DNA of 64,000 nt from assembly GCA_950295325.1 (NCBI GenBank), contig OX485804.1, positions 36,952,001 to 37,016,000 of the forward strand. The letters run 5' to 3'. Each line of letters starts with the position of its first letter. The stretch's first letter is position 1. This document shows positions 3,781 to 43,192 of the stretch, piece by piece. The position numbers and the translations under genes were made by a program. The notes beneath the pieces are model-generated. The model searched no databases. It worked only from the letters and a program-made list of their open reading frames with translations, and was not told where the DNA came from. The stretch is from Polytrichum commune. Taxonomy: Eukaryota; Streptophyta; Polytrichopsida; Polytrichales; Polytrichaceae.

Positions 3781-3971
3781 TGAAGCGGGATTAGGAAGAC
3801 TTGGAGGCGACATCGTGGGATAGAGGGACAAACGCTTAATTCATGGTAAGTGTCTTACTTAGACTTTGTGACTTTGGTGATTTTCTAGTTTAGTTCATTT
3901 TGATTATTTCCTAGGAATGAATTGCATATTTCCTTTATGCATTTTTGTTTTGAGGAGGGAGCGCGGCAAAG

Positions 3972-6220
3972 TGATGCACCCCGTGGGTCGTTCCCTTGTA
4001 ATTTAGCTCAAGAAGACTCACGGTGAGACATCACGTAAATTTATATTCGCTTGAGAACTACCGTGCCTCATTAATATGTTCGGTCTCTAATTAATAATCC
4101 CTCTCTTCTCCTTATGATATGAATATAATTATTGGAGTGAACACAATCTCATTATCTTAATTCTTATTCTCAATGTACGGCATCATTGATAATAAGAACC
4201 ATTAGATTTAAAGAAAGATTCAAGAGGTGTAACAATATTCTTGATAATAATATAGTTTTTTTATAAATCATATGAGTCTTTAAGACTCGTAATTCATAAG
4301 CATAAATCACATAAACGATAGTATCTTATAATGATGAAGAAGATCTAATATTCTTGAATCTTCCTTTTTAAACTCAAGTGTTACTACTTATAATATTGTA
4401 ACTTGACATGTATGCATATAGTATTTATAATTTCGTGAACACATCATTGATTGTTTTACAATGTCACGTTTAACATTCAAAGTGTTTTAATGACAAGAAT
4501 AATTATAACTCTCTTGAGGTTTATTCAAGAGAAAGAACTCCTCTTTGATTGTTAATGACATCCAACAACTCACAAAGTATCTTAAGAGAAGAAGCACTTT
4601 TTCTACAAAGTGTTTCTTGATGACGAGAAGATAAACCTATCTCTCTTGAGTTTTGCTCAAGAGAGAGAGAGAGATCTTCTCTTGAATAGACAATCCTTCA
4701 AATTGTAATGACATCCAACAACTCACAAAGAATCTTAAAGTAAGAAGCTTCAATAACAATTGTAGTAAGTAGATTATCTTATATCAATATTACTTTATTC
4801 ATATGTATTCAAATTTTGATATGAATTAATGTCTTCATCATTTTTGTTAATCATATGTTCAACAATCAATATGTAGTATAATATGTATAATACTTATAAG
4901 TCAATCATGTAGTTTTCAATAATAAGCTCCTCCTCTTTTGAAGGAGTTGCAATCGTTAAGTTGTTTTGTTTAAATCATAACATGCATATAATTCTTCAAT
5001 CATTCAATCACATGTATATTTATAATTCCCTTTTGAGGAGATCAATGATAAGTTCCGCTTTGAGAGATAATCTTGTTTCCTTCACTCAAGTTGACAATCG
5101 CTTTCTCAATTCAATCTCTCTTAAAGTCCCATTGATTCTCCAATTTGTCTTGAGCGCTTTGTTCTCACCCTCACACTATCTTTTGAGTTCTTTCTCAAAA
5201 GAGTCTACTCAATCTACTCTACTCTCGGTTGCTCAATCACTTAAGCTACAAAGTACCATTGACGACTCGTAGTTCAAATTGAGAGAGGTAGAAAGATCAC
5301 ACGCATTTGTAGAAAAGATAAGTGTATTGCAAAAGTTCCTCGAGAGGAGAGTTACAAAAGCTTCAAGTGATTCTTGACACTCAAATTTAAGATAACTTCG
5401 TTGTGTAGAAAATGAGGTAATAGTCTCCTAATTTGCTTCCCTTATATAGTCTTCTCTTTCTAATCCAAAATCTTCATTAAGAGTGGTTGTGATCTCCACT
5501 TTTCTAAATAACTATCTATCTTCAAAATATGTAGATGTTAACTAACTTAAACAGTTATAACCGTTTTACCATTTGAATGTTCAAGTCTCTAAGATTCTAT
5601 TATATCCTTGTCGTGGCCACATTGTAATTCCTTTTGAGAATACAATCAAGTCTTCACATTTGCTTGATTCCAATGATTTGTATTAAACATACTAGTAGAA
5701 TCTATTCTTGTCCTATATGCTCATAATGCATCTTCATAATGCCTCCCTAACTTAATATTCCAAAATGCTTATATATTCCGTAATCATACTCTTCAAAATT
5801 CCTACATCCCCATATACTCCTTAATCATGCCTCTTTATATAGTCATTGATTCTCAAAATCACTTGCACTTAGACTAATGCATATAATCCTAGTCCTACAT
5901 AATGTCCCTATATATCCTTATAATCTCCCATATAAGTCTTTACAAAGTTCCCCCTTTCTAATACTAAGTTCCCTTTGCTAAGCTGCCGGGTACCTATTGC
6001 CGCGGGTAAAGGACCCTGTAACCGCGCGACTCCCTTGTAACTCCGTGACAAAGGGGGCCTAAACCCGTGCACGAGCCTAAGGCCGTGGCCGAGCGTCCTC
6101 TTCGACCGGGACTCCATTCTTCTCTTCCAGCGTTCTCTCTCGGTGCGGCTCTTCAATCTTCGGTGTCTCCAATTTACTTGTTTAGCTTCCACCCTAAGTG
6201 CTAAGCTTTTGTACTCAACA
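3972..6220 (-). repeat. 3' LTR of the large gypsy element
   Basis: It is 2249 bp and reads from TGTTGAGTAC to GGGGTGCATCA on the minus strand. I found no difference from the 43193-45441 copy in any stretch compared, and their lengths are equal. A TATA-like ACTATATAAG lies at 5441-5450 (minus). The 103-aa open frame at 4961-5272 is repeated identically in the other LTR and has no recognisable domain, so I do not call it a gene. Confidence 0.92.
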
Positions 6221-12279: not shown

Positions 12280-13335
12280 TCACCAACTTCCAAAACATAA
12301 GCCCTTGCTTTCTAAGGGTTCATGGTAAGGTTTAATCTTACTCATGTTTACCCTTCCAAGATTTTCTCCTTGTAATGTGCTTACATCCACGGTGTTGTTG
12401 TTGTAAATTTCCATAATCTCGTAAGGTCCGCTCCACCAGATCCTAAATTTACCTGGACCAGGTTTGTTCATTCTTTGATGCCATAGAATCTTTTGACCCT
12501 TGTAGAATTTTGGAGTGTTGTTCCCTTCTAATTTCTCCCTTGCTTGATGAGTTTTCTCGTTGTTCTCCTTAGTATCATAAGAGGTTTTCTTGCAATGTCT
12601 GCACCTCTTGCCTTCCATCAAAGTTTTATCTTGTCTTCTTTTTCTCATGGTTTGAGTATGCTCGATATTCTCCTCTGCTTCGATGCGAGTTAAGTCTAGT
12701 GTCTTTAATTGTTCCATTCTCCTTTTAAGAACGGGATGCCATTCTTGATTTCTTTGGAGATTCTCCTCGTTATAAATGAACGTTAATGGAAGTAATGCTT
12801 CCGTTCCAAATACCAACGAAAATGGTGTATGCTTCGTGGTGACTTTGTATGCCGTTCTATATGCCCATAATGCCGCATATAGTTTAGTGTCCCAATCCGT
12901 TCGATTGGCGTTTACCATCTTGGTAAGTGTTGTTTTAATGACTTTGTTGGTGCTCTCAGCTTGTCCGTTGGCTTGAGGGTAGTAAGTTGTCGATTTACGA
13001 TGTAACACCATAAATGTCCTAGTTAATATTTGGATTGTCTCATTTAGAAAGTGACTCCCTTAGTCACTAACTAGTTCAATCGGACATCCGAATTTGGTGA
13101 TGATCTCCTCAAATATGAATTTCGCGGTTGATGCCGCGGTGTTATCCTTAAGTGCTCTCGCTTCAACCCATTTGGTAGTGTAATCCGTGGCGGTGATGAT
13201 GTATCTATTTTTAGTACCTTTGGCGGAAGGATTGATTGGACCTATAAAGTCTATTCCCCATCTTTGAAATACTTCCGTAGGCATAATTGGATGTAATGGT
13301 TGTGCGGATTTTGATACTTTTGGTCCCACTCTTTG
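12280..13335 (-). pseudogene. Integrase catalytic core and C-terminal domain
   Basis: The core reads WGIDFIGPINPS (first Asp), then ELVSD followed by a TAA at 13062-13060 (second Asp), then YYPQANGQAESTNKV (Glu). The DDE triad is therefore visible, but a stop falls where family members usually have Gln (CAA to TAA). The ORF 13011-12280 continues with a C-terminal domain holding WWSGPYEI, the GPY/F motif of Ty3/gypsy integrases. Its end overlaps the env-like ORF start. Confidence 0.8.
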
Positions 13336-15235
13336 ACATATGTCACATTGTTTGCAATACAAATATACGTCCCTTTTCATAGTAGGCCACCAATAAAGAG
13401 CTGTCAGTATTTTGTGTAACGTGATGCTTGCCGCGAAGTGTCCTCCCGCAATGCCTTCATATGCTTCGGCGATGATCGCCTCGGTAATTGGTCCGGAGCA
13501 AATCTCCTTTTCATTCCATCGGCCCCTTCCTTGATTAATTGGTCTCCATTGATTAGTTGAAAAGGTCTACTTCTTATCGCTATTTGTTGTCTTTGAGAAA
13601 TTGTTGCCGGTGTTGTCAATCTCCCATGCGATAAGTAGTCAATAAATGGTGTCCTCCAATCTTCTTGTGGATCGGTAGTAATTGCTCCACATTGTATTTT
13701 AGTTGTTGTTTTCTTCTTACATCTCGGACATTCTTCATTGATATAATGTTCCGGGTCTTGTGTTATGGTAGGCCACCAATAAGGCCCATGGAATATTTGT
13801 TGAATTGTATCGTTCGGGTTGAGATGGTATCCATTTTGTTCATGCACTCTTTTAATTAGATGTTTAATTGGATCTCCTGTGATACATATTTTGCTTTCTC
13901 CGTGGTCTACTTCTTTCCTTAATTCTCCTTCTTCCATAAAGTAAGTTCCATTTTCGTGTTCAAATGGGTGTTGATCTCTAGTTGTCCCATGAGTCAAATA
14001 CTCTACTATTGGTGCTCTCCAATCCAATTTGGTTGTCTCATTCTTTCGTGTTGTTGGTTTAGTACCATTTCTTTGTTTGACGAAACTTTGAATATCGCGA
14101 GTCATTGTAGGCCACCAATATGGTCCTTGTGTTGCTTGCTTTATCATTTCTTCACATGTTTGGTATTTTCCATGAAGTTCCTTTAAAAATTCTTGAATTC
14201 GATTCTCCGAAATACATTCTTTTGGTATCTCCTTGGCGACAAATTGTCTCATTAGTTTGCCATTCGTGATGGCGAAGAATTGGCTTCTATTCGCAATTCG
14301 TTTTTTCTCTTCTCCGGTTAAATCATTGCTAGTTACCTTTCCGAATGACAAATATTCGACGTAAGGTTTTCTCCAATCGGATGGTGACATCTCCTTTAAT
14401 GTAGTCGTCTGCTTTCCTTTTAGATTCATCTCTTCTTGCTTCCCATTGAGTTGTAACATGCATTCTTCACATTCGTATTCCGCATGATACTTGATGTCCT
14501 CATCAATCGTAGGCCACCAATAAGGACTAAAGAATATTAATTGCTTAGTCATAGGTAAGGTCAAATGCTTGCCTTTTGCGTTGTGAGTGGCCGCTATGAG
14601 TTTCCTCCTCGACTTCGTGTGACGCATATTCGCGTATCTCCGTTGGGTAGTAATCTTATCAAGGTTCCTCCGTTGAGAACAAACCGCTTGCATTTGTTTG
14701 CCCATCGAAGTTGTTTTTCATTGGTAATATTTTCTCCACTTACTTGTCCATTTCTCAAGTACTCAAAATAGAGTGTTCTCCAATTCGTTGCGTGATTTTC
14801 TTCCGTGGTTGATTCGTCATCCGATACCGAGTCTAGTATTAGAGTATCATTTTTTTGTTCATATATTCGTCTTTCACTTTGTCGTAAGCAAACCGGACAA
14901 TCTCCGCAATAACTTGCTACGTCTCTTTTTCTTGTTGGCCACCAATAAGGTCCGCTTAGTATGGTGAACCACGTGTCTTCAAATGTTTGATGTCGCCCTT
15001 CTTGTTCATGCGCTTCCGCAATGATTTCTCCAATAATTTGTCCCTCTATGCATGTCTTCGATTCTCCACTTGGGCTAACGCGTATTAATTTTTCTCCATC
15101 CATGATGTAGGGTTCACTAGCCCTTCTTATGCGTGTTTGTTCATCTTCCGTTGTTCCTATTGTTAACAACTTTCCATACTTGAGGTATTCTTTGAACGGT
15201 TTTCTCCAATCTTCCGTTGGTTGTACATATACCAT
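13336..15235 (-). pseudogene. Five tandem integrase H2C2 zinc-binding modules
   Basis: The sequence normally contains one H2C2 (HHCC) module before the integrase core. Here five successive ~110-120-aa units each begin DWR/NWR..(E/D)YL..G and end (G)PYWWPT or LYWWPT plus a metal-binding tail. Approximate extents on the minus strand: unit 1 15211-14888, unit 2 14785-14460 (frameshift near 14615), unit 3 14378-14058, unit 4 14024-13719, unit 5 13664-13336 (frameshift near 13480). Units 1, 2 and 4 keep H-x5-H and C-x2-C. Unit 3 has lost the second His and the Cys pair. Unit 5, next to the core, has Tyr for the first His (AYEGIAGGH). Units are well diverged from one another, so the duplications are old. 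A TGA at 15241-15239 separates this from RNase H. Confidence 0.8.
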
Positions 15236-15238
15236 GTA

Positions 15239-15546
15239 TCATTCAAGGCATGGTGTCACATTTTCCTTTCCTTGTTCATTTTCTTCACTTGATTGCTCTT
15301 TTTTTTCCATGTAATCATCTTCTTCTTCTAGTACCTCCATACAAAACAAATTCGCATCCGGTAGTTGGTCGTTTACTCCGGTGGGTGGTTCTCCATTATC
15401 GATTTTTGAGAGGTGATCCGCCATCACGTGTCGTCTTCCGGGCATATACACAATCTCAAAATCGTATTCTTGTAGGAGAAGCATCCATCTTGCGATTCTC
15501 CCCGAGATTATCGGTCTATTTATCAAGTATAACAATGCTTGATGAT
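15239..15546 (-). pseudogene. RNase H C-terminal part of gypsy pol
   Basis: This continues the RT/RNase H fragment across the solo LTR at 15547-17336; the ATGAT duplication joins the two in frame at VDH/QALLYL. It shows INRPIISGRIARWMLLLQEY and the PGRRHVMADHLSKI motif typical of the RNase H end of plant gypsy pol. It ends with an acidic linker and an in-frame TGA. Confidence 0.8.
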
Positions 15547-17336
15547 TGTGAGCCCAAAAGGGTGCCCACATTTAGTCTTAGACCCTTGAAACGTTAGTTG
15601 ATGCACTTTGAAGTAGCATGTTACTTCACAAAAATATAAAAAGAGTGAAATGTTAGTCTTAGAAGTACCATGTTGTAAGAGGCTAGGATGTGAGTTGTTA
15701 TTGTGTTTTTACCTTCGGAAGGATTTGAATGAATGAGGATAGGTAAGGAGAACTTGGATTGAGTAGTTAGTGAGTAGGCTAGTACAAATGGATGGAGACA
15801 ACCAAAGTGACTCAAGAGGCAAGTGCATTCGAATTGGGATGAATGGAGGATCACATGGAGCGCACAAGTGGACCACCTCATCATGGCCACTTAATGGGGA
15901 AGGCCCAAGGAAGAATGCAAGGTGGAGGATAAGCAAATTCTCAAAGCACCAATCAAATCACGAGTTAAGCATCGTGGTTTGAATTAAGTGGTGAGCGACG
16001 ATTTGGGAAAGTAAGGGGAGAAAGTTATGGCGGCGGAAAGCGAAGGAGGCTAAGTTTGGGTTGAAGCATCCCAAGTTTGGTAAAGTGTGGTAGGTAGAAA
16101 GCCAAGGCTAGTTAAATGTTCGAATTAGGATCCTTGTTGATCATTTGAGGGAGGGAGGCTTAGAAGATAGGATTGGCGCCTACTAAGTAGGAGGAAATCT
16201 CAAGGGCTTATCGTGAGCCTTGAGGGTGCTCACCCCCTCAAGCTTACTATATAATCCCTCATTCTTCCCTCACTCATCCTCTCTTTCCTTTGTGCTCCAA
16301 GGCACCCCACGAGTTATAAGTGTGGGTGTGGGAAGCCATATTGGAGCACATGTGTGTGCTTAGTTTTTAGTTTGAGAGCCAAGGCTTGTTAGCCTTGAAG
16401 AGGGCTTGACCTCTTGGTAGAATTAGTGTTGACGTGAAGGATTTTAAAGTTAATTCATGATTCCAATTTGTGGTACTTTAAGTTCATGTTTTGAATACAC
16501 GTGGTTGCAAGTTCCATGTTTAAGAGTTGAGCACTTGATGTTGTGATGAGTGCAAAAATATACTTGTGTGGATTAGTTAGTCTTAGTGAAGTTAGGAAAT
16601 TCTCTTTCCCCCTCTCCTCTCTAGGATTTTAGGATTTTAGGATTAGAGAAGAATTGTGTGATTAGAAAGGGGTTGTTAGTAGAATTAGGGAAATTAGGTA
16701 GGAAGATTAGTTAAGGGCTTGAATAATTAGTGAGGTAGTTGGGGATTACAACTACAAAGTTGTGGGTTCATGAAGGAGCTGGGTTTATGAAGGAGCTGGG
16801 TTTGTTTAGTTAGAAAGTAAAGAGTTGGGTTTATAAAGGACCTGGGTTTGTTTAGTTAGAAGCTAAGGAGCTGGGTTCATGAAGGAGCTGGGTTTATGAA
16901 GGAGCTGGGTTTGTTTAGTTAGAAAGTAAAGAGCTGGGTTTATGAAGGACCTGGGTTTGTTTAGTTAGAAGCTAAGGAGCTGGGTTCATGAAGGAGCTGG
17001 GTTTGTTTAGTTAGAAGCTAAGAAGCTGGGTTTATGAAGGAGCTGGGTTTGTTTAGTTAGAAGCTAAGAAGCTGGGTGGACGTTAGAAGCAAACAAAGAC
17101 AAAATAGCACCCGAGCATAAGGAGGTTAAGTAGTTAACTTGTGCATTCTCCACATACGTATTGAAATCGTACATTGAGTTGTTAAAAGTGAAATTCCAGT
17201 TAAATCCAAGACCACTTGAAGGGTGAACCTTGCACTATGGACTCATCCAAGTCCAAATCCAATACCGCGGAGGAATGTGAGCCCAAACCCACTACTCGGA
17301 CTACGGACGCTTAAGGGTGGGGGGTTTGGCCTCACA
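15547..17336 (+). mobile_element. Solo LTR, GAGCCC family, copy A
   Basis: 1790 bp, starting TGTGAGCCCAAAAGGG and ending GGGGTTTGGCCTCACA, with a perfect duplication ATGAT (15542-15546, 17337-17341). It has a TATA box in ACTATATAATCCCTC near 16250. In place of the 59-aa micro-ORF it has a short frame starting MDSSKSKSNTAEE near 17238, apparently an internally deleted version. It is inserted in the RNase H domain of the gypsy element. Confidence 0.88.
16765..17075 (+). repeat. Minisatellite in LTR copy A
   Basis: Alternating GAGCTGGGTTTATGAAG and GTTTGTTTAGTTAGAAGCTA modules, roughly 17 and 40 bp, repeated about eight times. The same module type recurs in copy D at 53700, which points to common ancestry of these two copies. 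Confidence 0.85.
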
Positions 17337-17341
17337 ATGAT

Positions 17342-18269
17342 CCACGTAAAACACGAAATGATTCGCCAAGAGGTAGTGTCGGAATTTATTTACCGAATAT
17401 ACCATTGCTAAGGCTTCTCGTTCCGTCGTGCTATAATTTTTCTCCGCTTGATTTAATAATCGGCTTGCGTAATATATCGGTGAGTCAATATTTTCATTCA
17501 CCTTTTGCGCTAGTACCGCTCCAATGGCTATGTTTGATGCATCACAATGGACATGGAATTCCATTGACCAATTTGGAGCCATTAATATTGGTGTTGTCGT
17601 GAGAAGTTTCTTGACTAGTTCAAATGTTTGTTGGCAATTTATCGTCCATTCAAATGCTTCATCATTTTTTAGGAGAGCATAAAGAGGTCTCGTAGTTTGT
17701 GCAAACATCCATATGAATCTCCTATGGTATGTTACCGAGCCTAAGAATGCTCGTAAACTCTTGACATTGGTTGGTGGTGGCAAGCTTTGTATCACGGAGA
17801 TCTTTTTGGGATCTATCAAAAGTCCCTCTTTGCAAACCACGTGACCAAGTAATCTTCCCGAGGTCACACAAATCATGCATTTCTCCGGATTAAGGCTTAA
17901 CTCATTCTCTCTACATCGTTGAAGACAAAGCTTAAGGTGCTTGATATGATCCGCCTTTGTCCCATATATACTAAAATCGTCCAAAAATACTTTCATGAAA
18001 TCATTTAGAAACTCCGCGAATATCGTCATCACTCCCCTTTGAAAAGTGGATGGTGCGCTCATTAGTCCGAATGACATCACTCTAGTAGCATAAGCTCCCC
18101 ATTCCGTGATAAAACAAGTTTTCGGTTGATCCTCCGGTGCTACCCTCACTTGATTGTAACCACTAAACCCGTCTAGTAGTGACAGCATCTCGTGTCCGGC
18201 TACCGTCTCAAGAATTTCCTCCGTGAATGGTAATGGAAATGGGTCGGATTTTGTTGCTCCGTTGAGTTT
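17342..18269 (-). pseudogene. Reverse transcriptase and RNase H N-terminal part
   Basis: The fragment continues from 37507 once the CACTA element and one TTT duplication are removed (joint at DYRK/LNGATKSD). It shows the RT palm with LLDGFSGYNQVRVAPEDQ, FGLMSAPSTFQR and the catalytic box FLDD (VFLDDFSIYG). Then come TVTYHRRF-type thumb/connection sequence and the RNase H start FHVHCDASNIAIGAVLAQ and STTEREALAMVYS. There is no stop within this fragment. Confidence 0.88.
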
Positions 18270-18284
18270 CACTACAAGAAAATA

Positions 18285-18980
18285 AAAAATAAACGACTTT
18301 GTTTATGACTGTTTTTTGAGTCGTTGAGGACAGAATTGACTATTATTTTTTGTGTTATTACGGACAAGTTGTAACGGACAGTCAGTCATTTTGGACGTGA
18401 CGTCGGTACGCGGATGATATAGTCATTTAGGCTAGTCGTAAACATGGATGATTGATGTGGCTGACCGTCCATGATGTATGCATTGCGTGGCGTTACGTGG
18501 CAACACGTGTCGATATACGGTTTCCACGTCGACGTCCTAGTTGTCACGGGTGCCATGTCACCGAACACGTGGCGTTACGTGGAATCCACGTCGACATCCT
18601 AGTTGGCATGGGTGGCATGTCAACGAACACGTGGCTTCCAGGTCATTTGGCCACGTCATCCAGCCACGTGGCATACATGACATGTGTCAGTGTGCGGGTT
18701 GACATGTGGTCAAGTAATATATCGCCACGTGTCCATTATGTGGTTCTTAAGTAGTCGTTTTGAAGTTCTTGTTTTGTCATTTGCTAGTTATTAAGTAGTC
18801 ATTATTTAATCGTTTTATAGTTCTTATTTAGTCGTTTTATAGTTGTTATGTGGTCGTTTTTATAGTTCTTTAATCATTTCCTAGTTGTTATGTGGTCGTT
18901 TTCTAGTTCTTAGTTAGTACTTGTGTGGTCGTTTTCTAGTTCTTAGTTAGTACTTGTGTGGTCATTTTCTGGTTGTTGAA
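18285..18980. promoter_or_regulatory. Left subterminal repeat array of CACTA
   Basis: Two kinds of repeats are present. From about 18740 to 18970 there are GTCGTTTTATAGTTCTTA-type units. At 18525-18640 there is a ~65-bp tandem pair (CCACGTCGACGTCCTAG... and CCACGTCGACATCCTAG...), itself rich in CACGTGG words. Such arrays are the usual binding sites of the TNPA-type protein. Confidence 0.65.
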
Positions 18981-19277
18981 CAGTACATGCCATCTTTGAA
19001 CACATTCAGCCATTGTTTACTCTTTTCTTAGTTGTGCATATCATTGCGTGTCCTGAGATGAGAGGGGTAGCATTGTGAAAACATTGGCAACCAGCATTCA
19101 AACATTGGCATGCAGCCTCAATATCAAACCATGAATCACACATGAAACCAATCAAACATATTTGAATTTGATTGTGGGGTTCCCAACAAAATCTGTAAGA
19201 GTATTCATATGTGGGATCACAGTGTTTAGTGTGGGGAAGACCTTTATCTACTCCCTGCTAAGTACGTCTAAGGAAAT

Positions 19278-22200
19278 TCACGCTGCTTTCAAACTTCTCT
19301 CATTCCAAAGTGTGCTGCCTCCCACTACGTCTTTAACTAGCCACTGGTCTCCATCCTCGTGTGGGTAGGCAAGCTTCACATCACCTATGTGAGCAGTTGT
19401 CACATCAACTTTATAGCAAAATTGCGGAATCACCTTGAAGTGGAACTTGTCCACACCCCCTACGCCGCTGATTTTACCGGTTGCCACCTTGCGTCGCTTA
19501 TTTTTTGGACTCATTAGGTGCACACATTGCCCAACATTAAAAGATACCTACACAACATCCTTACATCAATCAAATGCATACCTTATGAACTGTAGTGATC
19601 ATTACAACATTGTTTCAGCAATGGATGCGGTGCGGGTAAAAACTCAACTATTAAGGGGCAAACCAATGATAATGCAATAACAAACTCACATGAGACCAAC
19701 CCCAATAGGGCTGCCTACAATTGTGCGATTGGAATAAGAGTTTACGGAACTAAGAAGAGGAACCTGATGTGTAGGCATCGAAGTATTGCCGGATGTACTA
19801 TCCAGTGCCCTCACACTCCTTCGTCGCACTTCGAAGGCCGGAACCACCTGAACATGCACAAAACAACCCACTTTGAATTAGTACCCAAGCACATGGTAGG
19901 AGGGGGAAAAAAATTCCATTGTGAACTTAAAGTTCACAACGATCCCTCACCTCCTGGAAACTTCCCAGTTGACTCTGCAATAGGAGTGCATGAGCCAAGC
20001 ACTGCCATGTTCCTTGAAAAAGACTTCAATGGACACATCCCTGGTTGCATTTGTGATTCATTAACTGTGGACCAGAAACTCGCAACGTCTTTGTGCGCAT
20101 ACAGGCGTTGAAGAGCTGGCCATAAGTTTTCCTTTAAATAAAGTTTGTCCTCAGATAAGTCCTTCACATGACCAACATAGAAAGGGGGGGGGGGGCAATC
20201 ACATTCCATGGTGGATTGCAGTCCACCCTAGGAACATGATGATCTATCATAACGGTGTTGCTGCCATTCCAACATGGCCACCGCTCCCAAACCTTGGTCA
20301 AGGGTTTCCCCCACAATGACCCCTCCTCACTCTCTTGTATTACCTCGCAATCTTTGGCTGCCCACACAAAAAATGGCTTATGTCCTTCCAAATGAGAAAA
20401 CACGGGTAGGAACTCCTGTAGGACCTCTTCCGTGTACTTTATACTCTTTCTACCCCAAAATGCTACTTTGAAAAATTTAAAGCACATTCCCAGGAACTCC
20501 ACCATCCATGGCCGATACACCAACCTACGTGTCGTTGTTTTCTTGCTCACACGAATGTTTGGATTTGGATTCGGTTCACTCAATAGAGTGGTGTCCAGAA
20601 GAGTGCCATGAAAATTGAAGATCAATAGTTTGGTGAGATTGGGAGGGTCCGCTATCGACGACATGTTCAAACGAGTCGTGAGGCTCACCTGACCAACGTG
20701 CGCATTGTCATCAGCACCAGTGTCACCTATTGTCGCAACCCATGCTAGGTCCCTTAATAATCTTGCCAATTTTCAATTCTAGCAAAGGTTACGAGTCGCT
20801 AACCCTTCGCATTCCGCCATGCTAATGGATAGCTCCTCTTACCCCGGACCAATAGTTCATAGGAGGGAACCAACCCTCCTACTTTGCTTTCGGGACTCAC
20901 CCCTTAATCGGTAACCCATTTCCCCAATGTGGACTTCCATCCATGGAAGTCCAATCCTATGTTGATCATCGCGTTGCCGGAGCAACACTACAACAACCCG
21001 AACCATACTAGGCAACTATGGCCTCACAATAGGCCAAAGCCCATGGAGGCCTTGCCGTTCGGCCTCGGGTGGGTGAGGCCACACCACCTCACCCATATAA
21101 GCCTCTAGGACTCTACGCGGGACCCCTACCCCACCGTCAAGAGACCTCTTGTCTCTCTACCAAGAGTTGGGGCCAAGTGGACATTTTCCCTTAGCTGCTG
21201 GGCCTAGAAGCCCCTAGCAGCTTCAGACCATCATAACTTCCTTGTTTGGTGTCTGATCTTAACAACCAACCACTCCATCTTCATCTACGCTTCACGTAGA
21301 TGCCGATGGACTCCTCACTTGCCCCATTTGGGCAAGTATTGACGAAGTTATGCCTGTTTGAACCTTGGCAGTCCCGGGAATCACTCCCAGGCACTGCAGT
21401 ACCAGGGCGCTGTCCCGGGACAGCGCCCCACTTAAATGGCCATAACTCCTAGCTCACACCTCCGATTGAGGTGTTCTTGAGCATTCTAGAATCACCACGC
21501 CATGAGCTACGCATAGCTCATGGCCTTACCCTTGTGCCTCCTAGTCTCCGTGGGTGGGAGGCGTTCCCAACGCCCGGGGCCCTCACCCACACTAGGATCA
21601 CTTGGGCCCTCTCACCAACGGCGCCACAAGTCCCGGGTGTCACTCCGGGGTCCCCCTTGTGCCCATGGTGTTTCGGGCACTCCTCATGGAGAGGTGCGCG
21701 ACACCTATCTTGCTTGGTGACATGGTTTTCGGGCTTTTGGGACATGAGATTGAAGATACTCCCTTCCCCGGAGAGGTAACAAGGGTTGCAACCTCAGCAA
21801 GAATCGCTACATGCCCGCCCTCTACACCCACACTCCCACCCACCCCACTCACGTCCTCCCCACTAGGACCAGCTACCTTATTCCCCCCTTGGACCCCCCC
21901 CTCCCCACTACCATCTACGCCAATGGCAGCCACCGCAACCTGTGGAATTCCAGAGTCAAGATCTGCACACCCACCATCAACCACCCCATCCCCCTGGCTT
22001 GCATTAGCTGTAGGATTAGGCTGCCCAATAGTAACCTCTGCTGGACCTCGCTTCTTGGCACCGCCCTTTGCAATCCTCCCTTTTTTCAATGGCTTCTCGC
22101 TTCCCCTAACATTGATGACCTCCTGACTATTCTCTTGCGACGCGGAGACTGCCTTTAGCTTCGCATCCTTGCTCCTGGTCATCCTTGTGTAGGTTATGGG

Positions 22201-25200
22201 TTGGCCTTCACCTTCACTATGAGTTGAGGTGTTACCCACCACATCCACTGGCAGCGTATTGGAGGTTCCCACGCGATCCACCGGGGACTGATCTTGGAGG
22301 TCGCACGGAGATTTGGGGAGGTTGCGATGCACGTCCTGGTTGTTCGCCGTCGTCTTGGGTTTGCTCACGCTCGTCTTCGACTCTAGCTTATTCATGATCG
22401 AGGTCACCATAGCTGCTAAGGTACCCAACGTTACATTCACATCTTTTAACGCTTGTTCGTTGTTTTGGGATGTCATTACCATGCTGGCCATTTGACGCTT
22501 GAATTCAGCCTGGTTGTTCTCCACAGCAGAGAGGCGGGCTGACACCCTCCCGGAAATTGCTTGCTGTGCAATAAGAACACAACCCACTTCATTATGCAAA
22601 CAAACTCTAGTTGGGGTCTGGTTTAGGCTCTCCCATATACATACATCTAACTTCTCACATTGAACAAGATAAACATGCCAATACCTCTCCCCAGTGTCAC
22701 ATAAATAAGTCAATATTACAACACCAAGACGTATAGATTGTTGCTGCAACTTAATTACGACACATAGACTTGTCACTAAAAGTGCAGCCTGAGAAAAAAA
22801 TGACTGGAGCCAACTAGATAATGACAAAAAAAGGATTGTATCTATCAAGCATCTCTTCCTGGTTCACATTTCGGTTACAATAGTATACACCATATTTCTA
22901 CACATATTGATACTTGCAACTGCTCACTTTTTATTCACTAACAACTTGAATTCCTATTACACCCTCTCATATGAAATTAACAAAGCAACTAACATGAACA
23001 AATGCCGCGCTTGACTGTTTCAATTGTCACAAACTGCAGTCAAATGTGTGGCTAAGTGTTTTGAGGCCATTCATGCATGTTGCCGGATATGTACATAGTA
23101 GCAGCATGGGATACTTACGAGGTCTAACAATTCAGGTTCCCAAACTAAAGTGAAAATAAGATAACATATGGACCCCTGTATTGCAATGCTATGTGGTGAG
23201 GTGTGGATCTATGAACAGACACATGAAAACCATGTCCCTAAAAGACACCGAACTATTGAGGAAAAAATTTGCTAGCCACAAGGAAACTTACTAATCATTG
23301 AGACTTGGGGGAAATTGCAGGGCTACATGACCACTTAACTAGCACGGCCATCTTCACTTTCTCAATTCGAATGACCAACTCGTACGAGCTTCAAACATTG
23401 TGGAGCAAATGGTACACCCATGACTTACTGTTGCGACTCACCTCACATTTATCCTTCTTTCAGGTCGTATAACACATGGGTGCAGAGAGGGTAGCTGCAC
23501 AGTCAAAGTGTCTACTAAAATACATAAAATCTCACATTTCAAGTACACCAGACTAGAAGACTCGGCGAGTGACATGGAGTTCACTTATGACCCATAACCT
23601 AAAGCAACTTAATTGACATTGGTTGAGTTATCATCTCGCCGCCCCTCTACACAACTCTTTCAAATCTATCCTCACATTACCCTTAATGAACTTTTACAAA
23701 ACAACATTGAGCAAGAAGACATGAAATTGAGCCCAGTGGCCCTACCCCGCTCAAGAATGCAACGTTTGCATGTCAATCTCTCACATGCAAACATAAGTTC
23801 CACAAAGTGAGGAAGTATAAATATTTCTTGCAATCATCAAACAAAGTTTGGCCTTTAACCCCTAGCCGCATACCACATGAGTAATCAGTGGCCCTGAGTG
23901 TGCCATACTAGATGTACCTATAATAGCGTGTCTTAGTTTACACCCATTTCAATATGTGCTAACTTGCTACTACATGTTACTCCTACATATTGTACAATTG
24001 ATTCAATCTTCAGATACTTCAAGCTATAGGTACTTAAACCGCTTTTAATATGTATTATTGGGTTCAATTTGGAGATGTTGGAGCTATATTTGGCACTCTC
24101 ACCCTAACTAGTCAACGTGTATCCAACCATTAGTTATGTGGGTACAATCAAAACTACAAACGCCTGGTAATGTACCTAATATGGTGTATGCCTAATATCC
24201 CCAACAAGTAGGGGAGTCAATTTAGAGTAGGTTCACGGGATTGAGACTATATCTGAGCATCACTTAACACAGAGGATTCATAATATACAATATGTCTCAA
24301 TGGTGATGAGATTTCAATGGCATGCATTTAGCTATAGATCACGTAACACAAGCCCAAATCTCTTCTTCTTCTTTAATTGGTCTTTTTAGCATTTATGGTG
24401 TTCCCAATTGACCATTCATGAATTAGTTTATTTTAGGTGGGTTTACTCTTAACCTTCGAACACAGAAGAGGAAAAAGTACCTTAAACTTCTCCCTACAAT
24501 GTCTTCGTGCCCATGATGGGCCTCCTTGACCCTTGATACATTAACAATCAAAATCTTCATACATGGGAGAGAGGGAATTATTGTTTATGACTGTACCTTT
24601 CATTCATCCAACATAAAAGGTATGATATACTTGGTATTACTTTTAAATGTTCTGTGACATTGGAATTAGCCTCAAATGACCCAAGTTAATAGAGACATAG
24701 AGGATTACGATACTTTAGCCACAAACTTTTCGATGGTCCAGATTTTTACTGGACGAATAAGAGGTCCACTCGTATGCAACAGTGCCCTCATGGTTGTTAA
24801 AGAGACACGCCTAACTCCAACACAACAATATTTAATCACCTGGCATTTGAGTGGTATGTTTCTGATCCTACAAGAAGTGGGTGTAGAGATAGAAGTGTCC
24901 AACTTACGCACACCTACCTTACATGAGGCTTAGACATGTGTAACGTATTGATTCTAAAGGGGGTTTTCAAATTATGTTTTGCAATCAATTTTATTGTAAG
25001 ATAGGATGAGAAGCATGACATGGGAGTGTTACTGGAACCATTTTATGAATAACGACTGCGACACGCTTCCTACCATCACATTAGACTTTCAACTTTCAAC
25101 TTTCCTGGTTCCGAGTTAGAGTTGCTAAAAATTATGACCAGACCATTGCGTCATTAGCGAACTAGGAGGTCCAAATAATGCAGTCACCTGCAGATTATAC

Positions 25201-28200
25201 GCTCTCCACTTACTTCCTTATCAGCGAAAGTCTAAGTCATCACTGGCTACATTCAATAGGTTATGTTGTAATTAACTGTACATTACCCAAGAACAGATTC
25301 CTAAGGGCTAGAGTCCAAAAGCCTGCTCACCCGAAGTACTATTTGATGTCCTCTCATTTATATGAGGGTACTTAAAGAACCAATTTGCTCTCTACTTGAA
25401 GTTAGAGATTATTCCGCCTAATTATGTGTTGGCATCCCCATGGCATTCCTCCCATTCATCTACATTAGGACACAACAATGACTGTAAGGACCTACACAAA
25501 CTGCAAGGCTTATGGCTGAATGCTATCTACGCTTGTAAGACTCCACGTCAACTGATTTTACCCTCAGACACCAAAAACCACACATTTCAACTACACTTGG
25601 ACACAGGTCCATAAGTATACAAATCGTAGCACATTTAATTAGAAGGCAGATTACTCACAGAGGTGCATGCCCTTGTCTGCTCCGATTCTTGCAAGTCCTC
25701 AGCTATCTCGGTGATCCCGGGACTCCTCTGTCTTTTCTTCTTCTGGAATCAAAAACATGCGGACGTTCATTAGGAAGCTTTTCAGTCATAACAATTTTTA
25801 CTTAACAATGACTTAAATGAATGTATGAAGTTACAAGTGCACGTAAGTTCAGGTTGACACTCACCAACAAGGCTTCTTTGCCGGCTTTGCCAGCCCTCCC
25901 AACGTTGGACTGATTCTTTACGGCCTTCCTCGCATTCGCCATTCTCAAAGCCTTTTGCTCAGTTTCGGGATTCGTCCAATACTCGCAGAGACGTGCCCAT
26001 TGATCCGGCTCAATGAAAACCGGGCACTCTTTCTTGCCACCCAAAAACCATGCCTTCATTTTTGACCTCTCGGTCTTCATCTGCCTTTTCACTGCATTCT
26101 TGAAACCCCTGTCGGATAGGGGGTTCCCCACATATTCAAACTCCTTGTCCAATGCAACCCTTAGTCTCTCAACGCTGGAGGGAGTTTGGTCCTTCCACGA
26201 AACGCAGCTCACGTCTAGTATCCTAGGTACCAGGGTGCGTAATGCTTCGTCAAACTCATTCTTCCCTTCACAACCTCCATCTATTCCTCCACCCGCCTTG
26301 ACCCTCACCTTCTGCGGTTTCTGTCCGGTGGCACGCCTTGCATCCATGGCTTCTTCCACTTCTTTCTTGTGCGCTCTCCTTGCTGCCCTAGCCTCGCTCT
26401 CCGACTTCATCGGGGGCCCTTCATGTTGTGGAGCCGCTGTCGCTTGGGGAGGCTGCATCCACGGAGCGGGGTATTGTTGTGGCGGCATCCACGGGTTGGG
26501 TTGTCCCATCATCCACTGCTGTTGCTGTGTATTCTGGGGTCCCATCCATGGTTGTTGCATCCACGGTGCAGTGTTCAGGGGAGCAACTTCTGGTTGCGGA
26601 GGGGCCATGGTTTTAGGGGGAGATACGTGTGCCTTCTGACCAAACACGAGCACGAGAACAACAACACAATTGGGCGCATGTCAGGTCTAGTAAATGGCCA
26701 TATAAATAGTTAAATTTTGGGTAGAATCAATGTTGAATATAATCATTAAGTTATTGTTGAGACAATACTGCAAAGACATGCAAACCTCAAGGGTATGTAT
26801 GAACACTGACTCAACATTAACCCAATGCTCTATTGCTTTTGGAGATGCATAAATAAAAAGTTATTCTCAGTTGTAATACCCAAAAAGAAGACATTCATTA
26901 AAATAGAAATGGCCATATTTTTAATTTTTAATATATTGACATATGTTAACATGCTCGCATGGCCGAATCTTATGTTTATGTAATTTTTGCATCAATATAC
27001 TGGAATTTATATGTTGTGATATTACCCGTAGAATACCCTGGAGTTTATACCTTACTCATAAATAACAATTCAAATTCACAATTATAGTGACCACTCGATC
27101 ACATAATACGAGAAACATTATAGTCACCAATCATTCTAATCCGGTTCGTATCATTTTCTTCCTCTGAACATGAGAACAGGGAATTTACCTTCTTAGGCGG
27201 GCTCTTAAATATTTGTCGGGACCGCCTTTTTGTCGCACTTGACCCGAGCCGATCCCCAGTTCCGTGTCGCAGCGAATGGACATCTTCGTCTTCTTCCTCA
27301 TCTGCAAACAAATGAACATCCACACAGTCAGTTGCGTGCGGATGGGTGTAGGGTCAATCAATGTAGACCAATTTAGTATTCGAAATTATGAGCAAAAGAC
27401 CAGGCGAAAAGTACCGAAATTGGAGCCACTAGAATCCCCCATTCCTGTTCAATCAGAAATTGCAACTTGGTTTAGGGTAGTCGTTCCAATCAGAACAGCT
27501 CTAGTGCCCAGCAAAAGAAAAAATGTTAGTCTTAGGTCACCCAGCCTCTGCCATCTTTGTGTGATTTTTGCTTCAAACGAATACGCAATTCACCTATATA
27601 ACAAATATTCAGATTATGTAGGTACAGCTGAAGGAAGATAGAAATACTCCACATGAAAATGAACACCAATTAATCAAACAATTGATCTCTACTTCATACA
27701 ACAAGAGGACAATGCATTAAATGTATTCAACATCACACTCACTGACATGGCCATGTGAACTTACAAACTCATACCAAGCCAGGAGTTTTGGGTTGCAAAC
27801 AAAATGACAATTAGAAACCAAAGTGCTACCTTACTTGCTGGTGATAGTGCTTTTAATATGGTCTTCGATAAAAAGTAGTGTAGGCCCTTGTGTGGACTCT
27901 ACTCAATTAACCACCTATATTAGAGTGGTACGTGGCAAAGCTGAAAGAGAGAATAAAGAGCAAGTACACAACCTGACTGATATTTAAGTGATGCACAAAC
28001 CATTTCATTCTACCAGGATGATTATTATTAAATCACACAAGTTCCAGATTCAAAACCTCACATGGTTTTTTTCCATTTGTATATTAGATTTACCTAGATA
28101 GTTTAGGGTTTAGGGTATTGTATTCAGGTGCCAACTTAAAGACTTGTTTACCCAGCAAAACTGGTTGTTGCTCTTAGTCGACATGCTATTGTAATACTAG

Positions 28201-30930
28201 CACACAATGACTGGTAAAGGATTGATAGGTCTACACATTCAACTACACTATGACTGGTAAGGTCCTGGACATAACTACACAATGACACAATTACTGGAGA
28301 TAATTTAGGAAACTCACCTGGGCTGGGAACATAAACACCTGAACGTAGAAGGTTGATAACCCTCACCTGGGCTGTACTCGTCAAAAGTCTTTGTGTCAGC
28401 CGATTCTTCCTCCCGGTCCATGTCACTAAGATCTCTCCGCTCTTCCACTGTTGCGGGTTTAGGCAATGTTCTTTGGCTGCGTCGTGTAGGCAAAGATGGG
28501 CCCTCCTTCATAGACATCGAAGATGACTTGAGCGCGCTGAAGCTGTGACGTCTGCACTTGGATACAAGGGATTCCCACAGTCAAACTTCAACAAATCAAC
28601 CCCACTCGTCATCTTGAGCCCCATTCGAATTTAAGTTAACATACAAAGAGCTTTGCTGCAGATATTCAGATTATTATATGTTATTTTAACAACTTCTTGA
28701 CCTCGGCAAAATACTACTGTAGGGCATGACTAGCTAGATTTGATTTCAGAATGCGGGGCAATATCAAATACATTCACAATGACCTTCTGTTGCCTTTATG
28801 TAGAGAGTTGCTAAAGCGCACATCACAAATGCATTCAACCAGCCTCTAGTGAATTGGAGATTCAAATTTAAGTTGAGGTGAGCATAAATAAACCCATCAC
28901 AAGAACAGACTCAAGCACAATTAACAAAGAAATAAGACTACATGCAACCTAATTATGTGTTTCCAAACTTCAACAAATTACGGCCATGACCTGAATTCAC
29001 CATCAATGACCTAGCCAAAACATAACAAGGATGACTCATAAGAAACCCTAAACCCATTGCATAGCTTTAAAATACACACACACACAACATATGGGTTGTT
29101 TTAAGAGCAGAAGATCAGTGAGAATATATTTCGAAAGAGTGCCATCGTGACAAAGCCTCTCACTTCAATGAAAATCATCACACGATATATCAAGCCACTT
29201 CAAATCACAATATTAAAACAAAGAAAATTGGAGGCAGATAGAAACAGCACTTACGGCACATTTTGTGAACAACTCCTTCACAAGGTGTGCCCTTGTGCAA
29301 AAAGAGCTTCAATTGACATTTCTCCTTCATAAGCTGTGGACTTTGTTGATGCATGGGAAATGAAGCTACAATATGCTAAGGATATGTTACTAAGGCCTCA
29401 TCAATCAGAAATTTCAAACAAGGAAAACAGGAGAGATCCGACAAAACCCTAAAGTAGGAAAACCCAAAACCAAAAAATGAGATTTATTGGAAAAGCCCAA
29501 AAATGAAACCCCCAATCCTTATGAAAGAAGGGAATCTGAGTCAGTTTTTGTCTGCTCCTGAAAGTGCGGCACATTTAGTTACAAGTAATGCAGACCATTA
29601 CCACTAATGAAAGGATTTGACCCACCCACCAACAAACATGACTAGATTTGTCCCCCACCCACACTAGTGAGGAAAAAATGAAACCCTCACCCACAAACAT
29701 GATCAGATTTAACCCCTAAACCAAAAAATGAATCCCCCACCCACAAACCTCATCCAGCAACTCACCTGGCAATTAATGTAGAAGGTAACCCACAAACTCC
29801 GCATCAAACCCTCACCCATTAAGGCACCAGGTTTGAGCTAAACTCTAAAGAACACTCACTAACACTAAACCCATCCCCCAAGAAGACCCTAGTGCGCCCT
29901 AAACCCTAAACCCACATCCCTCAACAAAAGCCGAATCAAACCCTCACCCAGTAAGGTACCAGATTTGAGCCAAACAAAGTTTCAATCAAACCCTCAACAC
30001 AATTTCAAACCCTCACCCATCAAATAAACCAGATTTGTGATAACATTTGGTTTGTCCCCCAACAAAGTGCTGGTCAAACCCTCACCCATAAAGACGAACA
30101 ATTTGACCCTACATCTAACTACACAAACACAACACATTTTACAAACCATATCCAACCCTGAACCACATATTTCGCCGAAACAAACCCAACTTCATCAAAC
30201 CCGGGAGAGTGCTTACCACAATGTCGCGGACCTAAACTCCAACAACCCGAACCTGGAAAGAGTTTCGAAACCCTACCCCCGAGCCATGCGGGAGAGACCC
30301 CATCCCCTCTACAAGGTCTCAGATGTGTTGACCACATCTGAGCCGTTGATTCCTATGGCTGAGATTGCGCCACGTGCTGCGAAGTGACCCTGCACACCCA
30401 AGAGACCCGTTGTCCACAAGCATTCCCCGACATTGGCGGCTCCCCGAGATTCCCAGAGCAGCGACCTTCTTTTCCCTTTACCCTCGGATTTACCCTCTAA
30501 GTTTACCCAGCGAGCTTCGTCTTGGATTTTTTCCAGCGGAAGTTACCCATCAATTTGACCCCGGAGCAACACGTCAACCCGGATTTTACCCTCGGATCTA
30601 CCCTCTGAGTTTACAGCACGATTTTACTTCCGGATTTTACCTTCCGGAATTTACCCACGGATTTTACCTTCCGGAAGTTACCCACGGATTTTACCCCGGA
30701 GCAACAAGACAACACTCTCATCCCTAGACGAAAATTCAGGCCTCAAAAACAAAGGTAAGAGATACTCACAAAGTCATTGATGCTTGTTCCATTGGCCTCA
30801 TCAGCTCCTTTAGTTTGGCGACGCGTTTGTCACGCTCCAGTTCATATTCACACTTGTCCACGTCGCCATTGTCGTCTTGAGCACCGCTAATGCTACCACA
30901 TTGGCCAACTCCTCCCTTGGTACAGGGCAT
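19278..30930 (-). CDS. TNPA/TNP1-type CACTA accessory transposase with FCP1-like insert
   Basis: Supported exons, with matching phases from exon 1 to 6: 30930-30770 (MPCTKGGVG.., ending in a basic helix YELERDKRVAKLKELM), 28551-28367 (RRSQR, acidic), 27301-27189, 26635-25865, 25742-25659, and 22563-19951 (interrupted by a solo LTR). The last exon is 19547-19278. Exon 4 has a Trp/Met/Gln/Pro-rich start (PWMQQPWMGPQ) and then the Ptta/En/Spm-type region around MKAWFLGGKKECPVFIEPDQWARLCEYW. The last exon (GQCVHLMSPKNKRRKVATGK..) resembles the TNP1/En/Spm C-terminal domain. Between them exon 6 holds an extended Ser/Gly-rich linker and an FCP1-like region. The joint from 19951 to the last exon is unresolved, as a small exon near 19861-19767 does not fit in phase. 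The product is presumed to bind the subterminal repeats. Confidence 0.7.
19951..20730 (-). pseudogene. FCP1/NIF-like (HAD-fold) phosphatase-like domain inside TNPA gene
   Basis: Part of exon 6 of the minus-strand CACTA gene. It shows, in order, LLIFNFHGTLLDT (20628-20590), YRPWMVEFLGMCFKFFKVAFWGRKSIKY, GKPLTKVW, TVMIDHHVP (Asp near 20244), NPPWNVIAPP, and LWPALQRLYAHKDVASF. This is the motif series of the plant FCP1-homology/NIF family. The catalytic DxDx(T/V) is NFHGT and the IDD(S) is IDHH, so three of the four acids are gone and phosphatase activity is not expected. A G12 run at 20184-20195 sits at a frame change: the C-terminal part continues in another frame. This is either a real slippage frameshift or a length error in the homopolymer. 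Confidence 0.65.
20731..21703 (+). mobile_element. Solo LTR, TGTCGC family, copy 2
   Basis: 973 bp, from TGTCGCAACC to GCGACA, with a perfect duplication CCTAT (20726-20730, 21704-21708). It is homologous to 8071-9006. It is inserted in exon 6 of the CACTA minus-strand gene; removing it and one duplication restores the frame exactly at SPSKI/GDTGADD. Confidence 0.87.
22564..25658. other. Large intron of the TNPA-like gene
   Basis: About 3.1 kb bounded by a GTGAGTAATC donor and a TTGCACAG acceptor on the minus strand. The sequence is AT-rich, without long ORFs or recognisable repeats. Confidence 0.55.
28552..30769. other. First intron of the TNPA-like gene with simple repeats
   Basis: Bounded by GTGAGTATC and AAGTGCAG on the minus strand. 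About 29540-30110 holds loosely repeated AAACCCTCACCCA..CCAGATTTGA units and two AAACCCTAA-type boxes. About 30475-30700 holds GGATTTTACCCTCGGATTTA-like units. The open frames over these repeats look accidental. Confidence 0.5.
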
Positions 30931-31099
30931 TGTCGAATGTGAGGGTGTAGGTAGCTTGGTTTTGTTTACTCAAAACAGCTTACCGTATTGGAGTGTGGTG
31001 TAATCATCTCAACGCTGAAATACGGCATTGCGACGGAGTGCATGCTATTTACGGGCGGGGCTCTAACGGATACATGGACGACGTTTAGGGTTTAGGGCT

Positions 31100-31190
31100 C
31101 CAGAGGGTTCCAATTTGAATAACGACTAAGTAACGACTCAGTAACGACTTAGTAACGTCTAACTAACGACTAAGGAGAAATTGTTTCGCG
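31100..31190. repeat. TAACGACT array between the divergent CACTA genes
   Basis: Five TAACGACT(AA/CA/TA)G units within 60 bp, the same word family as in the subterminal arrays. It lies ~170 bp upstream of the minus-strand start codon, so it may be a regulatory site for the element's own protein. Confidence 0.5.
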
Positions 31191-31418
31191 ACTGGGAAGT
31201 CAAGCTTCATTGACTAGGGAATGACTACTGAATGACATGCTTATGACCCAACCCTATAAACTCATTTAATATGTTCTGACATTGTTGTCTGGATCACCTC
31301 TGGCCCAAGACTTTAGCATAGCCCCCTTTCTTATTAGTCGGATAATCTCGGCAGGTTAGAGCTAGGATTGGAAGTTGTCAGCATGGTTAAAAGTTAAAAG
31401 TTATTAACTACTTCTCTG

Positions 31419-32600
31419 CCCCCCCCCCCCCCGCAATTAGTGATGAATGCAAACTATTGAGGAGTGTGGACTCACCTATTGTTAATTTTGTGCAATTCCA
31501 GTAGAGATCCTAGTGCACAATTACTTGAGATCGTGGTGTTTCCAAGCCCACATGGATACGTGTAGATGTCCTTCCACAATTTTGTGTAATGTTTTGAGTT
31601 ACATTTCAGGAGATGCATGTAGTATGAGCATAGATCCTACAACTTGATTCAAGGGATGCAATCATCTCACAGTAATCTGTGATTGGCATACCACAATAAG
31701 GGGGCATATACCCTCTGACCAAGTATTCAAGGTTGATGACTAGTTAATGACTAGCTAATGACTAGTTAATGCCTGGTTACATTTGAACGACTAGTGTGCG
31801 ACTAGTCTACGACCAGTTTATGACAGATGAACAACCATGAAATGGGTGGATACAACTATGTTTAGGGGCCTGATATTAGAGTAGCTAATACGCGATGTCA
31901 TTGGACCTAACATATTTTCTCTTATTTTTGGGATAAGGGCTTTTTACAAACTCATGTAATAAGATTGAAAGAACACCATGATGTATTTGCCCTTTATGCG
32001 TGGACAAATGGGGGTGATTTGTAGATGCCGCGTGTGTGTTCCAAGATCAGGAAGCCCTGTGACTGCTTATGTCAAGATTGTGGCCGTGATAGGTGGGGCT
32101 GCCTTAAACCACCTTGCATATGTCCGTTGCGGTTGAAGGGAACGTTAGGATTGGATTTTGCCGTGCGCAAACAACGATTAAAGTGCAAGTGCCGCTGGAA
32201 GAACGGACCGGTGCTACCACAGTGGATGTGCAAGTGTAAAGTGAGGGCGACTTGATTTTTGGTAAATGCCTATCAGATCTCTGCGTAAATACTTCTTGGT
32301 CCCCCCTCCCCCCCGAAATTAGTGATGAATGCAAATCATTGAGGAGTGTGGACTCGCCTAATGTCCATAGTTGTGCATAACCAGTAGAGAACGTAGTCTA
32401 CAAGTTGAATGATTAGTGAATGACTAGTAAATGACACACATATAACTAGTGCACGACTGCACACATGTCTGGTTACCTCTGAACGACTAGTGTGCGACTA
32501 GTCAACGACCAGTTTATGACAGATGAAATGGATGGATACAACTATGTTTAGGGGCCTGATATTAAAGTGGCTAATATGTGCATAGTGGTAAGCTTGCAGG
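31419..32600. repeat. Direct duplication in the CACTA intergenic region
   Basis: Blocks near 31419-31480 (C-run, ATTAGTGATGAATGCAAA..GAGGAGTGTGGACTC) and 31800-31890 (GGATACAACTATGTTTAGGG) recur at 32300-32365 and 32533-32575. The second unit is shorter and leads straight into the TNP2 first exon; the first unit leads to the Cys-rich ORF. The C14 run at 31419-31432 is a likely assembly-sensitive spot. Confidence 0.6.
32025..32255 (+). CDS. Cys-rich 76-aa ORF in CACTA
   Basis: It begins MPRVCSKIRKPCDCLCQDCG and contains 12 Cys, mostly paired as CxC or CxxC (CICP, KCKCRW, MCKCK), with many Lys and Arg. It lies between the two divergent transposase genes, on the TNP2 strand, and begins directly after a TTGTAG that could be an acceptor. 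It could be an independent small metal-binding protein, a 5' exon of TNP2, or chance. I recognise no family. Confidence 0.35.
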   Translation: MPRVCSKIRKPCDCLCQDCGRDRWGCLKPPCICPLRLKGTLGLDFAVRKQRLKCKCRWKNGPVLPQWMCKCKVRAT

Positions 32601-32604
32601 TTAC

Positions 32605-41457: not shown

Positions 41458-41740
41458 TAACGCTACTTAGCATGATCTTAGACCACCCTAGTTGGCCCTC
41501 CCAGCTTCAACTATGTGCATTCTATATTCATCCTTTCGCTAGTACGGTTCTTAGGACACACTATTCTTCTTGACTCAATTAGTTTTCTCTTCCTCTTCGT
41601 CGTACATTAACACTACTTAGCATGATCTTAGACCACCCTAGTTGGCCCTCCCGGCTTCAACTATGTGCATTCTATATTCATCCTTTCGCTAGTACGACTC
41701 TTAGGACAAACTATCTCTTAATCTAATTTTCTCTTCCTCC
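41438..41740 (-). repeat. 150-bp tandem duplication over the gag start
   Basis: The segment containing the gag start (ATG at 41457) and ~140 bp upstream is repeated once, with a second ATG at 41607. The upstream ATG opens a 10-codon frame, MYDEEEEKTN, whose first six residues match gag except that it soon stops. The copies differ at few positions. Confidence 0.75.
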
Positions 41741-43171: not shown

Positions 43172-43189
43172 TCCCCAGCATGGTCGCCA
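43172..43189 (-). promoter_or_regulatory. Primer binding site
   Basis: TGGCGACCATGCTGGGGA starts three bases inside the 5' LTR on the minus strand. It would pair with a tRNA ending in ..GTCGCCA; an Arg tRNA is my guess from similar Tat/Ogre sites. Confidence 0.8.
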
Positions 43190-43192
43190 AAG

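Follow-up and report, generated by a model that had tools for sequence, protein, structure and literature searches.

Tandem copies of the integrase N-terminal module in a Ty3/gypsy lineage of Polytrichum commune

Introduction

Retroviruses and ordinary Ty3/gypsy relatives have one N-terminal HHCC/H2C2 module per integrase, and the known intasomes raise the number of these N-terminal domains (NTDs) by recruiting further subunits. The NTD-CCD-CTD layout of integrase is regarded as invariant among retroviruses and LTR elements, with intasomes differing in the number of subunits that supply an NTD.

According to excerpts of a study of the lentiviral MVV intasome, NTDs in intasomes are swapped between subunits; in MVV many of them touch DNA or other subunits, and 14 of the 16 are more loosely held (PMC9065133). 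For Ty3, an extract of PMC8632968 describes the NED as stabilising LTR contacts and reports that it binds TFIIIC. Among plant LTR elements, the extra domain named in the main text of the Neumann 2019 survey is aRH, and the terms "zinc" and "H2C2" are absent from that text (PMC6317226). Searches of open-access titles and abstract beginnings listed no paper on tandem NTD modules in an integrase.

Results

The DNA analysed here (the window) is a stretch of 64,000 nucleotides from contig OX485804.1 of Polytrichum commune (positions 36,952,001 to 37,016,000). Six-frame reading and piecewise translation located five tandem integrase modules on its minus strand (15211-13318), within a Ty3/gypsy pol gene arranged as RNase H, five modules, integrase core. 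All five modules claimed in a preliminary description of this DNA are therefore present, on a strand which that account had not given. Every unit has (D/N)WR at its start and YWWPT followed by a Cys pair, or the remnant of one, at its end. The repeat unit exceeds the zinc motif; at about 105-120 residues, it is the whole NED+NTD.

Submitted separately and piece by piece, all five units matched the Pfam profile Integrase_H2C2, as had been predicted, although only three did so above the cut-off of 25.5 bits. Unit 1 (U1, 14851..15211, minus strand like all the others) is an NED+NTD with the ligands H,H,C,C and scored 36.6 bits; U4 (13695..14024), with the same ligands, scored 29.0 bits. U3 (14061..14378) keeps the fold motifs, lacks the second His and the Cys pair, and at 25.4 bits lies 0.1 bit under the cut-off. 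U2 (14430..14785) changes frame between 14609 and 14603; its second piece (14603-14430) carries H,H,C,C and alone gave 16.7 bits, a weak match from a frame-broken unit. The earlier statement that units 1, 2 and 4 retain all four zinc ligands agrees with these readings. U5 (13318..13661) is the canonical NED+NTD adjoining the core and changes frame near 13500; its second piece scored 51.5 bits, and its first His is replaced by Tyr in the window copy. The three unbroken units (U1, U3 and U4) share 29-39% protein identity (E 1e-22 to 2e-16), with U1 38-39% identical to U3 and U4. Their DNA is alike only in short stretches of at most 33 bases, and this combination of protein likeness and scant DNA likeness indicates that the repeat is old.

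The remainder of the element is also encoded on the minus strand. The integrase catalytic core and C-terminal part (12283..13317, by six-frame reading) are interrupted by a stop at about 13060; the core piece 13380-13060 matched rve at 26.9 bits, under the cut-off of 32.6, while 13059-12283 is 55-90% identical to the array-family proteins that top the match list. Preceding U1 are the RNase H end and an acidic linker (15239..15546; RT_RNaseH at 15.6 bits, under the cut-off). The RNase H reading continues beyond an insert at 15547-17336, where the reverse transcriptase (RT) and the first part of RNase H are found (17337..18269; RVT_1 9e-20, RT_RNaseH_2 7e-34). The RT is itself broken at 37507 and continues at 18269, flanking a second insert. 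The far side encodes gag, a CCHC knuckle, an aspartic protease and the RT start (37507..41466; Retrotrans_gag 7.5e-12, Ty3_capsid), the protease and CCHC matches of the window copy being below the Pfam cut-offs. The domain order gag, PR, RT, RNase H, integrase is that of Ty3/gypsy (Metaviridae).

The LTRs form a 2257-bp direct repeat on the minus strand. A PBS-like sequence lies just inside the 5' LTR (43185..45441) and a purine-rich tract precedes the 3' LTR (3964..6220), so that both LTRs, a PBS (as this PBS-like sequence) and the purine tract expected of a Ty3/gypsy element are found. A clean target duplication around the element was not found (ATTTG vs CTTTG). Without both inserts, the element would be about 20 kb long. 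The LTRs differ by a single mismatch at the extreme edge; taken at face value, this identity means that the insertion could be young, with gene conversion or a collapsed assembly as the alternative. The window copy is decayed, with frame changes in U2 and U5 and the core stop near 13060. Near-identical LTRs around a pol with frameshifts and nested inserts suggest that a defective copy moved recently, aided in trans, or else gene conversion or a collapsed assembly.

Both nested insertions lie outside the array. The larger is a CACTA transposon of 19.2 kb (18270..37506; ends CACTACAA.../...TTGTAGTG) with the 3-bp target duplication AAA and a Pfam match to tnp2 transposase in 32575-34419 on the plus strand. 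The smaller, a 1.79-kb insertion in RNase H (15547..17336; TGTGAG...CTCACA) with the 5-bp duplication ATCAT, holds tandem repeats, and related repeats occur at 53.7-54.1 kb. Between pol and the 3' LTR, a 491-aa open frame (6256-7728, minus strand) without a Pfam match may be an additional ORF of the element. Two other minus-strand frames, 8946-10070 and 21643-22863, have a common C-terminal tail and no Pfam match, and the DNA of 8390-9006 is repeated at 21087-21703 (88%). No chromodomain was found among the Pfam matches of 13011-12280 at E up to 1 in this single decayed copy, nor a second RNase H (Tat-type aRH) among the Pfam matches of the window pieces submitted.

Protein-database searches gathered 127 distinct relatives. 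We counted their units with an HMM built from 14 seed units, which was applied to 43 proteins and three window pieces and then to the other 84 proteins; of these 84, 16 have two or more units, 60 have one and 8 have none. The database proteins include two array families, the window type (U1-U5) and an eight-unit type (A to H). P0008 carries five units in one open frame. The eight-unit type is covered from A to H by four gaplessly overlapping proteins: P0012 (RNase H end, A, B, C and the start of D), P0028 (end of A to start of G), P0026 (end of C through H, plus core) and P0025 (D through H, plus a core with PF00665). Between the families, U1 is the equivalent of A (57%) and U5 that of H (78%). 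Some of the array-bearing database proteins may come from the window's own species; P0012, for instance, matches one place in the window's genome at 96% identity. Named matches are from the liverworts Riccia sorocarpa and Calypogeia fissa and, weakly, from the asters Bidens and Tanacetum. Scans of viral contigs returned no relative. P0055 represents a third array lineage, with an A-like unit followed by a unit without a clear class. There are also coreless derivatives that keep accessory units and whose frames continue (the genomic copy L069 and the proteins P0004, P0006, P0030 and P0036), with one junction common to P0004 and P0006 and another to P0030 and P0036.

With the array ORF as query, the five-unit family was found at at least 26 places in the 408-Mb genome, including the window (rows of at least 69% identity). 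The sister family, with units A to H, occupies many further places at 30-46% identity to this query, again a lower bound; the search scored 97 of 937 candidates, and its counts are to be read as minima. Array-bearing places number dozens in all and are spread over seven long contigs. Of 2568 candidates for the Pfam H2C2 profile, 150 were scored, and the best 30 of these each hold a single unit in a span of about 1.5 kb.

We read five-unit stretches at 18 of the 25 other places. All five positions follow in order in 17 of the 18 (13 are near-complete in one frame), which answers the earlier concern that no other member might carry the array. The exception, L067, lacks U1; among the others, U5 lies in two frames in L052 and L065, L068 has a partial U1 and L069 half of U5. 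Most of these copies are decayed: five are stop-free in the units found, and three of those five have all units complete.

In the sister family, three of the six stretches read have eight units and three have eleven, in the order A-B-C-A-B-C-D-E-F-G-H. Five of the six have no stop in any unit, and in four the stretch ends before H is complete. The expectation that arrays of four to six modules are family-wide thus holds for the five-unit family but is exceeded in its sister. A search with P0012 found a second A-B-C block (62-64% to the query) at 8 places, where the block's first unit comes directly after RNase H. Within a single copy, the two blocks match each other at 69-71% identity in A, 65-68% in B and 56-58% in C, values too low for a recent block duplication; this duplication also explains the arrangement of P0051, in which C is followed by A. 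In a tree of 70 units, the eleven-unit L072 and the eight-unit L075 hardly differ in their units from C2 to G. The number of units can therefore change between close copies, probably through recombination.

A tree of 88 units recovers every one of the 13 positional classes, as well as the outgroup, as one clade. Two pairings cross the families, U5 with H (100/97) and U1 with A (93/78), and U4 joins F and G (92/94, and 100/98 in the 70-unit tree). The 70-unit tree nests A1 within A2 and B1 within B2, leaving A2 and B2 as non-clades, as predicted by block duplication inside the eight-unit lineage; C1 and C2 part. When outgroups were included (44 units), all accessory units came together in a single clade, separate from the canonical, single-unit and two-unit modules (100/100), which implies one founding duplication followed by multiplication of the accessory lineage. 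The common ancestor of the two families probably had at least three units. The repetition in the two-unit pols P0070 and P0073 is an independent duplication, since the additional unit clusters in the tree with the canonical and single ones.

The predicted structure of unit A (P0052) runs helix-helix-three strands-three helices, as in the NED+NTD of PFV and Ty3; this one modelled unit carries the fold assignment, and the remaining units are assigned by sequence. The single-unit model was taken in place of an AlphaFold model of the five-unit P0008, left unused at a mean pLDDT of 31.9. In Foldseek it had no match with E below 0.001 (best 2.7e-3). A count by eye in ten accessory classes found the H,H,C,C ligands conserved at 232 of the 244 positions that could be read, and non-ligand sites of the accessory classes show 67% pairwise identity. 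The Cys pair of U3 is missing in all 18 other own-genome copies read and present in the database protein P0001, and class F is without zinc ligands in four of six copies (L071, L072, L073 and L075). Loss of the first His in the unit next to the core, noted in the preliminary description, is real in the window copy; as a family trait we ruled it out, because all 14 other own-genome copies with a displayed stretch keep the His and the window copy alone has Tyr. Mean charge differs by position (A -2, B +5, C +7, D +2, E +4, F -6, G -4, H +5). The linkers between units vary from 11 to 37 residues, that between A and B being acidic.

We estimated dN/dS (Nei-Gojobori, ratio of means) from open own-genome copies only. 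Few copies entered each set: in the five-unit family 8-13 of 15 were open and in the sister family 5-6 of 6, while the extra block is represented by 3 of 3, two of which are nearly identical. L052, L065 and L067 (not exactly five matches) and units with stops were left out, as were pairs with dS up to 0.02, saturated pairs and those with fewer than 40 codons. In the five-unit family, dN/dS was 0.17 for U1, 0.12 for U2, 0.20 for U3 and 0.24 for U4. The canonical U5 gave 0.38 with L069 and 0.11 without it; we set the higher value aside, because the L069 unit runs into unrelated sequence. The first block of the eleven-unit copies gave 0.12 (A1), 0.09 (B1) and 0.19 (C1), and the sister family otherwise 0.10 (A2), 0.18 (B2), 0.10 (C2), 0.13 (D), 0.17 (E), 0.20 (F) and 0.10 (G), with 0.04 for the canonical H. 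Individual pairs were not under 1 in 1 of 50 cases for U2 and 6 of 78 for U5 (L069 included), and codon-bootstrap upper bounds did not exceed 0.39 (60 resamplings, no more than 20 pairs). The accessory units are maintained by purifying selection. The value below 1 per module that had been predicted holds for every module, and the earlier view of the array as old and maintained is borne out by its occurrence at at least 26 genomic places, by the positional clades and by dN/dS well below 1 in each module. The ligand-poor classes U3 and F both have a dN/dS of 0.20; with ligands lost and selection retained, it would be too simple to regard every unit as a zinc NTD.

Discussion

Beyond the canonical module, the five-unit family has four extra modules and the sister family seven or ten. 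This Ty3/gypsy lineage carries tandem extra copies of its integrase's NED+NTD ahead of an ordinary integrase, and our preferred reading, to which we give an even chance, is that these act as a multivalent docking arm. The earlier suggestion that extra modules may alter multimerisation, target choice or nucleic-acid binding is plausible. The array would stay on or near the integrase and supply several NTDs in cis on one chain, which would most simply mean many contacts per chain; multimerisation, LTR DNA and host factors are candidate contacts. Each position, rather than being a further generic binder, would most likely be fitted to a partner of its own, whether integrase cores, LTR DNA or a chromatin or targeting factor of the host, given that conserved sequence and charge are position-specific (B, C, E and H are basic, F and G acidic). 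A more daring form of the proposal, which we hold only tentatively, is that the multimer is built in cis, with up to ten individually specialised NED+NTD beads on one chain replacing the flanking subunits of other intasomes and each, at its own position, gripping LTR DNA and partners.

The array might instead be cut from Pol as a separate protein and serve in the particle, apart from integrase, in a nucleocapsid-like or scaffolding role by coating or condensing RNA or cDNA. Its location between RNase H and integrase, the variable linkers (11-37 residues, with an acidic one between A and B) and the basic character of several units (B, C and E) would suit such a protein, as would the retention of units in coreless derivatives (L069 and, by sequence, P0004, P0006, P0030 and P0036). 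However, these derivatives may be plain non-autonomous decay, and the units still follow the NED+NTD pattern of integrase and have for the most part kept their zinc ligands, so we consider a separate protein unlikely. We rate no higher the suggestion that the array is a targeting arm, which would select insertion sites through the binding of its modules to several chromatin or transcription factors of the host. Position-specific conservation and unlike charges do suit unlike partners, and the Ty3 NED is reported, in the extract of PMC8632968, to interact with TFIIIC; the loss of zinc ligands in U3 and F speaks neither for nor against such an arm.

It is also conceivable that units simply multiply by unequal recombination, or slippage, and are carried as passengers. 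Units clearly can be gained or lost, as seen in the duplicated A-B-C block, in the differing unit numbers of the close copies L072 and L075 and in the independent duplication of P0070 and P0073. Nevertheless, each position is a clade with no homogenisation, frames are open across 8 and 11 units, and accessory-unit dN/dS is 0.09-0.24; on the last of these we rejected neutral expansion, which we regard as highly improbable. An assembly or annotation artefact, which the broken and nested window copy might bring to mind, is scarcely credible when arrays occur at dozens of places on seven long contigs and database proteins have the same unit order, even if part of that database support is perhaps from the same species (P0012 being 96% identical to one genomic place).

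Among the closest known systems, the Ty3 integrase of S. cerevisiae (PDB 7q5b) has an NED+NTD front part like an array unit, and so does that of prototype foamy virus, a retrovirus (PDB 3oym, 3l2q), but each has one module. The liverwort pols from Riccia sorocarpa (P0082, P0088, P0089, P0093 and P0117) and Calypogeia fissa (P0075) likewise have one unit each, although the RT of P0075, P0082, P0089 and P0093 is 45-52% identical to that of the window. P0070 and P0073 likewise have more than one module between RNase H and core, but only two units, the extra one canonical-like. The large non-chromoviruses of the Tat clade (plant OTA) have an extra pol domain too, which in the survey text is an RNase H (aRH; PMC6317226). 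The MVV intasome resembles the array in its many NTDs, but these come from sixteen subunits rather than from tandem modules in one chain. Against the single NTD of known integrases stand the five units of P0008 and the eight and eleven of the window's own genome. The block duplication among them amounts to modular growth of a pol gene, and with a series of 1, 5, 8 and 11 modules in one genome, the part played by NTD number and NED contacts can be tested directly. If the more daring form of our reading is true, an integrase with a tandem, position-coded docking array would be the first known to us in any mobile element.
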